DNA from: Pontibacter sp. G13
Lineage (GTDB): Bacteria > Bacteroidota > Bacteroidia > J057
Assembly (NCBI RefSeq): GCF_031851795.1
Contig: NZ_CP134696.1
Coordinates: 2,341,001-2,405,000, forward strand
Direction of reading: 5' to 3'
DNA length: 64,000 nt
Under the pieces are notes generated by a model, which worked only from the letters and a program-made list of their open reading frames with translations, was not told the origin of the DNA and did not search any database. Both the position numbers and the translations under genes were made by a program. The stretch's first letter is position 1; the number at the start of each line of letters is the position of its first letter. Positions 1,208 through 53,180 of this stretch are shown piece after piece.

Positions 1208-1397
1208 CTCGTGCGGATGGCTTGCGGCGGCGCGAAGTGCCTGGAGTGGCCGACCTTCGGGAGGAGTCTCGCATCTGGGGGCGGCGATCTATCGCCCCCA
1301 GATGCGAGACCGAGCGCCAGCGAGCACGGAAGGGACTGACCTGCCGACTCCTGATGCCAAGAAAGGAAATCCATGCCCAGATCGGCAGGGCGCGCCC
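1208..1397 (-). repeat. Dispersed structured repeat R1
   Basis: One of six related elements in the window, read on the minus strand. The outer stem pairs CGCGCC at 1391-1396 with GGCGCG at 1229-1234. A second stem pairs 1340-1347 with 1382-1389 (CCTGCCGA/TCGGCAGG). A third is a perfect 18-bp inverted repeat, 1266-1283 with 1293-1310. The conserved single-stranded part includes CTTCCGTGCTCGCTGGCGCT on the minus strand. It lies about 140 bp past the stop codon of the DEH reductase. No coding capacity is seen. The stretch 1398-1535 shows nothing else. Confidence 0.75.
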
Positions 1398-21481: not shown

Positions 21482-21635
21482 AACTAAGCGTTGAGAAATA
21501 GGATTACAGATCCCAACCTACCGAAATTTTCTAAAATACCAATAAGTTGGCAATCAGAAATATTGCCTAGTCGGCCAGAATATCCTCATGAAGCACCTAG
21601 GCATGCGTTTGAATGATGGAGATCTGTGCTGTTTC

Positions 21636-21820
21636 TCCCTGTGCGGCTGGCTGGTGGGGCGTGAGCCGACAGGAGTGTGAGGCGCAGCCGAAGTCCCGGA
21701 GGCACGTAGGGACCGAGCCCTGGATCTTGGTCCGGGGCAGGCGGCGAGCACGAAAGGTGGCGACCCTGCGGCCATGATGCCGAGAGGGATTCAAAGGACA
21801 AGCAAGCGGGGGCACGCCCA
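21636..21820 (-). repeat. Dispersed structured repeat R3
   Basis: A nearly identical, oppositely oriented relative of R4 (46243-46430). The outer stem GGGCGTG/CACGCCC uses 21813-21819 and 21657-21663. The second stem has a mismatch (CCCCGC against GCAGGG), and the CCCCGGA/TCCAGGG hairpin has one G-U type change, suggesting a slowly decaying copy. It lies about 140 bp past the rpoD stop, between two minus-strand genes. Confidence 0.7.
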
Positions 21821-30038: not shown

Positions 30039-30229
30039 TTTGGGCGTGCCCCAGCGAGGGAGCGGCCATTCCTCTCCGGGCATTTCATTCGCTGGGTCTG
30101 GCCCTTCCGTGCTCGCTGGCGCTCGGTCGGGGATCAGGAGGCGAGATATCGCCGCCTCCTGATCCCCGACTCCTCCTGACGGAGGCCACTTCAGGCCCAT
30201 CACGCCGCGGCAAGCCATCCGCACATCGA
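30039..30229 (+). repeat. Dispersed structured repeat R2
   Basis: Outer stem GGCGTG (30043-30048) with CACGCC (30201-30206). Second stem CCCAGCGA (30050-30057) with TCGCTGGG (30089-30096). Third stem is a perfect 18-bp inverted repeat, 30126-30143 with 30153-30170. It ends GCAAGCCATCCGCACATCG, shared in part with R1 and R6. It fills the gap between two convergent genes and ends about 10 bp from the stop of the next one. Confidence 0.8.
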
Positions 30230-30237
30230 CATCGGAT

Positions 30238-46242: not shown

Positions 46243-46430
46243 TTTGGGCGTGACCCCGCGTGCTTGGCCTTTGAATCTCTCTTGGCATCATGGCTGCGGG
46301 GTCGCCACCTTCCGTGCTCGCCGCCTGCCCCGGACCAAGATCCGGGGCTCGGTCCCTCCGTGCCTCCGGGACTTCGGCTGCGCCTCACACTCCAGTCGGC
46401 TCACGCCCCACCAACCAGCCGCACAGGGAG
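46243..46430 (+). repeat. Dispersed structured repeat R4
   Basis: Outer stem GGGCGTGA (46246-46253) with TCACGCCC (46401-46408). Second stem CCCCGC with GCGGGG (46254-46259 and 46296-46301). An inner perfect hairpin GCCCCGGA/TCCGGGGC follows CTTCCGTGCTCGC. A GTCCC/GGGAC stem stands in for the long third stem. Near-identical to R3 on the opposite strand. It abuts R5 in head-to-head orientation. Confidence 0.8.
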
Positions 46431-46443
46431 AAATATTTCGGAA

Positions 46444-46657
46444 GTGCGGTTGGCCTTGCAGGGGCGCAAAGTGCCTGGAGGATTCAGTCGGTGCAAGAGG
46501 TCAACCTCCCCAACTTGCTCCACGCTCCCAATGAACTCAAATACCCAGCCTGAACATGAAGCACCGACCGGAGCGACAGCGGAGTCCGGAAGGGACTGAC
46601 CCGGCGCTCAATGGCCAAGCGTCGCCCAACAGGCCCATTCGCCGGGATGCGCCCAAA
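46444..46657 (-). repeat. Dispersed structured repeat R5
   Basis: Read on the minus strand. The outer stem is GGGCGCA/TGCGCCC (plus-strand 46649-46655 and 46462-46468), that is, both arms changed together relative to R4. Second stem CCCGGCG (46600-46606) with CGCCGGG (46640-46646). Third stem GTCGGTGC with GCACCGAC. It lies 100 bp past the stop of the CsgG-like gene. The open frame 46611-46799 running out of it is not credible. Confidence 0.75.
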
Positions 46658-52935: not shown

Positions 52936-53152
52936 TTGGGCGTGCCCCGGCAGGCTTGGGAGCAGGTTCCTGCTTGGGTAGGAGCGACGCCGGGTCAGGT
53001 GCCTATGGGCTACGCGGTCGCTTCGGTCGGAGGAGGCTGGACGCCGCCGTTCATGTTTTGATCCAAAACTTCTCGTGTCTCCCAGATGATCCCATCCATC
53101 TCTCCGACTACCCCTTCGGCCCCTTCACGCCGCACTTGCCAGCCGCACATCG
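52936..53152 (+). repeat. Dispersed structured repeat R6
   Basis: Outer stem GGCGTG (52939-52944) with CACGCC (53126-53131). Second stem CCCGGC with GCCGGG near 52946-52951 and 52991-52996. Third stem GTCGGAG with CTCCGAC near 53026-53032 and 53102-53108. It ends AGCCGCACATCG, as does R2. It lies between the convergent VOC and susD genes. Confidence 0.7.
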
Positions 53153-53180
53153 AGAGATGAACTTCCTAGCCCCACCAAAA

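Follow-up and report, generated by a model that had tools for sequence, protein, structure and literature searches.

Two hairpins in the window, the whole 64,000-nt stretch of DNA analysed here, occupy one homologous position with different sequences and equally perfect stems, and the question is what keeps their arms complementary. Both exact 18-bp stems are real (1266-1283/1293-1310 in the copy R1 and 30126-30143/30153-30170 in the copy R2, each with a loop of 9 nt), and by simple counting two such inverted repeats in 64 kb would not be expected by chance. We find that both hairpins correspond to P3, a single helix within a larger dispersed element of ~190 nt. The reading that we favour, with a probability of roughly 70%, is that P3 is part of a repeat folded as one strand, most likely RNA, that spreads non-autonomously and lies mainly in 3' intergenic DNA.

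Three points in the initial annotation of the hairpins change with the larger sample. R1 and R2 are oppositely oriented, the common flank CTTCCGTGCTCGCTGGCGCT being read on the + strand in R2 but on the − strand in R1. What was described as a single 18-bp stem combines two registers, a variable stem of 14 bp and a last 4 bp (GGCG/CGCC) that compete with a constant GGCGA/UCGCC cap, the pairing of which would give a 3-nt GGY bulge in P3. Perfect pairing holds at R1 and R2 but is not general: the stem is exact over 18 bp in 41 of 100 copies of this subtype, with one mismatch in 33, two in 24 and three or four in 2. The 41 exact copies carry 32 different stems.

The source genome (7.67 Mb, 3 contigs) has 117 P3-subtype sites that match a pattern of conserved stem parts, against 1 for the reversed control pattern, and all 150 of the 150 candidates scored match the core model R2, giving at least 150 copies. 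One hundred distinct copies were drawn from those listed among the 117 pattern sites. A first alignment (A1) holds 85 of them, with 14 near-identical copies and one further copy (L110) left out; the 5' end is recognised in 92 and not in 8, and the full-length alignment A5 holds 81 after 11 of the 92 were dropped as too long or too alike. G.U pairs in P3 were counted in 93 copies, 7 of the 100 being out of frame. The element spans GTGCGG to CGCCCAAAT; of the 92 copies in which both ends could be located, 89 are 186-193 nt long. Its parts at R1 and R2, and the further copies in the window, are as follows.

1211-1401, + strand: R1, complete element, 5' GTGCGG to 3' CGCGCCC plus 4 nt, ends from the 92-copy alignment
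1204-1349: match of search models R1/R2 at R1
1229-1234 (5' arm GGCGCG) and 1391-1396 (3' arm), + strand: R1 P0, from covariation
1236-1248 and 1325-1337 (3' arm), + strand: R1 P1, with G.G mismatch and GNA internal loop
1250-1264, + strand: R1 P2 hairpin, tandem G.A in the R1 subtype
1266-1310, + strand: R1 P3, variable stem 1266-1279/1297-1310, cap 1283-1287/1292-1296
1311-1324, + strand: R1 P4, CGAGC GCCA GCGAG, tandem G.A
1340-1389, + strand: R1 P5 hairpin, CCTGCCG/CGGCAGG, 36-nt loop
30038-30224, − strand (folded strand): R2, complete element; models match 30087-30231
30126-30170, − strand: R2 P3, the second hairpin
30050-30096, − strand: R2 P5 hairpin, CCCAGCG/CGCTGGG
21634-21773, + strand: extra copy of another subtype with short P3 and extended P4, model match
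46292-46431, − strand: extra copy of the same subtype as 21634-21773, model match
46437-46609, + strand: extra copy, P3 GUCGGUGC/GCACCGAC enclosing a loop of about 70 nt, model match
52985-53155, − strand: extra copy with a large P3 loop, model match

In the 85-copy alignment on the R1 + strand the flanks of P3 also pair, and on looking further 3' we found a second hairpin (P5) and a closing helix (P0). P0 (GGCGUR/YACGCC) closes a three-way junction with P1 and P5. P1, a helix of nine pairs interrupted by a G.G mismatch and a 3x3 GNA/GNA loop, opens to a four-way junction with the hairpins P2, P3 and P4; P4 has tandem G.A pairs, and the loop of P5 is about 33-36 nt. In the columns of A5 the helices are P0 20-26/195-200, P1 28-40/126-140, P2 43-48/54-58, P3 60-74/92-106 with its cap at 78-82/87-91, P4 107-111/121-125 and P5 143-149/187-193. 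A kink-turn reading of GCGG-CGU-GA..GA-CC was dropped, as the 3' extension shows that those bases form P0.

Covariation shows a single-strand fold. Across the 81 full-length copies and 48 pairs, 98.0% of 3875 cells hold standard pairs (84.9% when shuffled), 444 cells are double changes (94.2 shuffled), and 30 pairs have double changes (20.3 shuffled). None of 500 shuffles matched any of these measures, and structures slid along the alignment were 33-46% paired. A separate count on the 85 copies also placed double changes far above the shuffled and slid controls, so the idea that pairing is actively maintained holds up well. The weakest helix is P2 (86.1% standard) because one subtype has G.A in place of a pair. 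Covariation extends to helices with distant arms (P1, 38-149; P0, 24-181; P5, 134-176), and positions other than Watson-Crick are held inside helices: the G.G of P1 in 66 of 85 copies, the G.A and the A.G of the 3x3 loop in 79 of 85 each, and the tandem G.A of P4 in 85 and 84 of 85. Minimum-energy folds of single sequences (R1, z = −2.95; R2, z = −4.34) contain P3 but reproduce the covariation structure only in part. It is the shape of the element that is kept and not its sequence.

The fold has a strand polarity, and the folded strand is + at R1 and − at R2. G.U outnumbers A.C by 51:10 over the helices then known (85 copies, p about 1e-7), by 58:9 over the full element and by 33:0 within the 14 pairs of P3 (93 copies), and the consensus folding energy is −134.2 on the folded strand versus −123.0 on the opposite strand. 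Irregular motifs such as G.G, GNA/GNA and tandem G.A are of a kind seen in RNA; sheared G.A pairs form in DNA as well. The G.U polarity is also compatible with single-stranded DNA, and we consider RNA the likelier of the two.

If the strand that matters were DNA, the element could be the substrate of a single-strand transposase (REP/TnpA_REP or IS200/IS605-like), with the fold kept because only folded copies move. G.T is tolerated in DNA hairpins too, and such a substrate would suit the high copy number and the lack of target duplication at the ends of the 92 copies (4-mers, 5/92 versus 9.8 shuffled; 5-mers, 0 versus 1.4 shuffled). Y1_Tnp matches are present in 7 of 10 genomes scanned, two of them in the source genome. 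Neither of these two has the element within the stretch fetched around it, however, and the scans revealed no mobilising gene. Over all genomes the element lies at 1 of 12 Y1_Tnp loci, in a genome with 83 copies, and three genomes with 1-2 copies each (G094, G119, G344) have no Y1_Tnp match. Along the chromosome the copies favour neither orientation (139 copies, p = 0.91), and their size and two-junction fold are unlike those of REPs. We therefore dropped a link to IS200 or REP systems, unsupported as it is by Y1_Tnp loci or chromosomal orientation, and regard a DNA substrate as unlikely.

The copies lie between genes, as judged by a gene predictor built for this analysis. One of 92 overlaps a predicted gene, 96 of the 141 gene ends that face these copies are 3' ends, and none of the copies is within 60 nt of a predicted start. 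On both sides, the nearest predicted stops practically adjoin the element (distance about zero). This placement, with some copies 2-17 nt from a predicted stop codon on either side, together with a core conserved across phyla, is what might be seen if the element were a functional RNA or a 3' mRNA element (for stability or termination) that many genes have recruited, its spread being a by-product. Against this, copies in tandem gene contexts run along the genes in 14 cases and against them in 8, with no clear orientation preference, and transcription within the upstream mRNA is thus not favoured; no match was found in 10 of the family's 13 genomes. Transcription as the 3' UTR of the gene upstream seemed favoured in an early count, yet placement proved roughly symmetric once the true ends were used. 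Recruitment by genes seems improbable to us as the main explanation.

The initial annotation had offered copying of one arm from the other as a cause of the perfect stems. That RNA hairpins can be created and maintained by template switching has been proposed by Monttinen and Loytynoja (2022, PMC8794818), and this mechanism accounts for perfect stems and multiple paired changes. Quasipalindrome correction, in which one arm of P3 templates the other at replication, would be a mutational process and not selection, and the 41 exact stems speak for it, as do double transversions (GC to CG, GC to UA) that are frequent even between fairly close copies. Paired changes moreover saturate about as fast as unpaired ones: relative to saturation they stand at 0.28 versus 0.31 among the nearest copy pairs (a bin of 8) and at 0.59 versus 0.86 in the next bin (89 copy pairs), a comparison of poor resolution with no genome of the same genus among those compared. 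Double changes in P3, transversions included, run near the rate of unpaired sites and faster than a plain two-step model suggests.

Several results argue against copying as the main cause. P0 and P1 covary although their arms at R1 are 156 and 76 nt apart. The G.G, G.A and GGY irregularities are kept inside helices, where a copying tract would erase them, and copying has no polarity of the kind seen in the G.U pairs of P3. If copying were at work, recent changes in one arm should be mirrored in the other. In the 11 most similar copy pairs, whose flanks are at least 90% identical, all 5 P3 differences are one-sided and none is mirrored, and all 5 switch between G.U and a Watson-Crick pair. At 85-90% flank identity (15 pairs), 29 of 38 P3 differences go from one Watson-Crick pair to another with both sides changed. 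Template-switch signatures were likewise missing: the 3-nt bulge of P3 is on the 5' side in all 100 copies, and no loop among them is the reverse complement of another, except for TATA in 6 copies, which is uninformative. The 100 copies thus lack the loop inversion expected from template-switch maintenance (PMC8794818), and selection is what the G.U polarity indicates. The pairing is better explained by selection on a single-strand fold, probably of RNA, than by arm-to-arm copying, which as the sole process is quite improbable; template switching as a helper to selection is possible, as is swapping of P3 between copies.

An ordinary terminator or short palindromic repeat that lacks any wider structure, for which P3 alone would serve as a strong hairpin and the 3'-side placement would fit, is refuted as a simple palindrome by the full-length covariation and is hardly tenable in view of the conserved unpaired motifs, the relatives with very different P3 and the lack of a U-run directly 3' of the element at R1 or R2.

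Under the preferred reading of a non-autonomous repeat with a selected single-strand fold, selection would keep the pairing and not the letters of the variable helices. Mutations would enter one arm, often as G.U, and would later be matched on the other. The element would spread inside genomes as a non-autonomous repeat and persist mainly in 3' intergenic DNA, where it may be least harmful, and the conserved core (P1, P4 and the junctions) may be recognised by a putative protein partner or mover.

The element matches no known family in the searches made. In the window and at ten loci, the element scores below gathering for every family of Rfam 15, and literature searches turned up no paper on it. 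Matches of R1 to mir-617 and mir-3199 and of a Pseudomonas copy to int-alpA fell below Rfam gathering and are taken as chance. One Pseudomonas copy aligns full-length to Actinomyces-1 (RF02928) at 18.1 bits, below the gathering score of 39.1 and with the helices out of line, and R1 gives no match to this family at E up to 10; we take this as chance too. The 5' GUGCG of the element resembles the GUGYG of group II introns, presumably by chance. No intron family reached Rfam gathering in the window and 10 loci, and no domain V of a group II intron was recognised there.

Some bcr repeats fold as RNA. The repeats bcr1-bcr18 of Bacillus cereus are interspersed repeats of 100-400 bp, with bcr1 in up to about 130 copies per genome, found on chromosomes and plasmids with mobile features (PMC6542083). 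Like repeats of the bcr/BOX/ERIC kind, the element is non-coding, is dispersed between genes in many copies and has a conserved single-strand secondary structure. The bcr repeats are reported to be confined to the B. cereus group and associated with a TTTAT motif (PMC6542083), whereas the element differs from them in sequence and fold and has relatives in two phyla. REP and BIME sequences are extragenic, of high copy number and palindromic, with G.T pairs noted (PMC3733652). REPs are single hairpins of 20-40 bp with GTAG or CGTC tags, in contrast to the two junctions and about 190 nt of the element, which ends in GTGCGG and CCCAAAT and has no linked Y1_Tnp gene in its own genome. MITE-like repeats such as RUP, NEMIS and ERIC are 70-300 bp long, adjoin genes and have no coding capacity (PMC3733652); the element differs from a MITE in having neither terminal inverted repeats (GTGCGG ... 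CCCAAAT) nor target duplications. We class the element as a new dispersed, structured, non-coding repeat of bacteria that lacks the defining features of REPs and MITEs and has an unusual fold and range.

Relatives are scattered, and genomes that carry the element vary widely in its copy number (1 to at least 150). Search model R1 found one other genome among 60 (the source genome included), G009, with 14 matches. Core model R2, run on the 13 family genomes, found at least 150 copies in the source genome, 46 in G009, which belongs to another genus, and 1 in G007. A 23-base core pattern found eight stretches outside the source genome: in MAG J049 (two contigs), Saprospiraceae UBA3362, the Pseudomonas fragi plasmid pAd12, P. 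peli, and two proteobacterial MAGs (three contigs in all). With the core model there are 83 copies in a Saprospiraceae MAG (G450), 2 in one proteobacterial MAG, 1 per Pseudomonas genome and 0 in one MAG found by the pattern. Scans with strict filters, in which absence is weak evidence, gave 1-2 copies in four other Bacteroidota of 394 and, in 397 Pseudomonadota, 1 weak match (L218) beside the model centre.

The foreign copies share parts of the fold. P1 with its GNA/GNA loop occurs in 34 of 38 versus 24 of 760 shuffles, a count that is not independent, the copies having mostly been found by models that contain P1. P0 and P5 occur together in 26 of 38 versus 6 of 760 shuffles; this too is weak, as swapped 3' flanks give them in 515 of 1122 (46%) because the letters are common. 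In the source genome P0 and P5 rest on covariation. P1 is missing from L153 and from the Comamonas, Hydrogenophaga and Thauera plasmids. Mean core identity is 0.69 within the source genome (G000), 0.71 within G009 and 0.61 within G450, and 0.56-0.63 between genomes, and the higher identity within genomes fits local amplification, as expected. Single plasmid copies are nonetheless up to 0.82 identical with a G009 copy and up to 0.81 with a copy of the source genome.

The Pseudomonas copy matches six plasmid records, and in the 3 plasmids viewed it has an SprT-like gene on one side and stbC, or the neighbour of stbC, on the other. In the P. silesiensis plasmid pPL2 the copy (L192) is at the same place as in related plasmids and has an internal deletion that drops P2-P4 and keeps the 3' strand of P1 and P5.

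We suggest, tentatively, that the element may represent a new structured RNA class of Bacteroidota and proteobacterial plasmids, a SINE-like element multiplying inside genomes, whose folded RNA or single-stranded DNA would itself be recognised and moved by a protein acting in trans, with P2, P3 and P5, free in sequence yet always paired, acting as struts; this stronger proposal is doubtful. With no Rfam match here and copies in two phyla and on plasmids, it is a candidate new structured RNA family, and the identity of its mover or binding protein would tell whether bacteria host SINE-like RNA elements. With at least 150 natural variants of the fold in a single genome, the course of stem evolution (a two-step path through G.U, simultaneous double changes or template copying) would be directly testable given a sister strain.

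Several copies differ from the common form or have repeats as neighbours. In the window, the copies at 46292-46431 (−) and 46437-46609 (+), of different subtypes, stand back to back with the 5' ends of their model matches 5 nt apart. In L170-L174, P3 is reduced to an outer GUCGGUG-like stem with a loop of roughly 70-100 nt of unrelated sequence, and L175-L181 are shortened relatives (GGCGATAGGGATGGGAAGGG CGAGCGCCAGCGAG GTCCGGAGCC) without the usual P3. Adjoining R1 is a cluster of related direct repeats (13-1180; 92-284 nt, spacing about 340-700) that contains three matches to the Rfam family Acido-Lenti-1 (410-455, 769-814 and 1102-1147), and letters similar to these repeats flank some copies of the element (L084, L085, L176-L178). 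A tract GGAGCATCCCCTTGTGGGTGCCCCGGT / AGGGGAATCTCCTTGTGGG, perhaps another repeat family, recurs in the P5 loop of L079 and L080 and downstream of several other copies.
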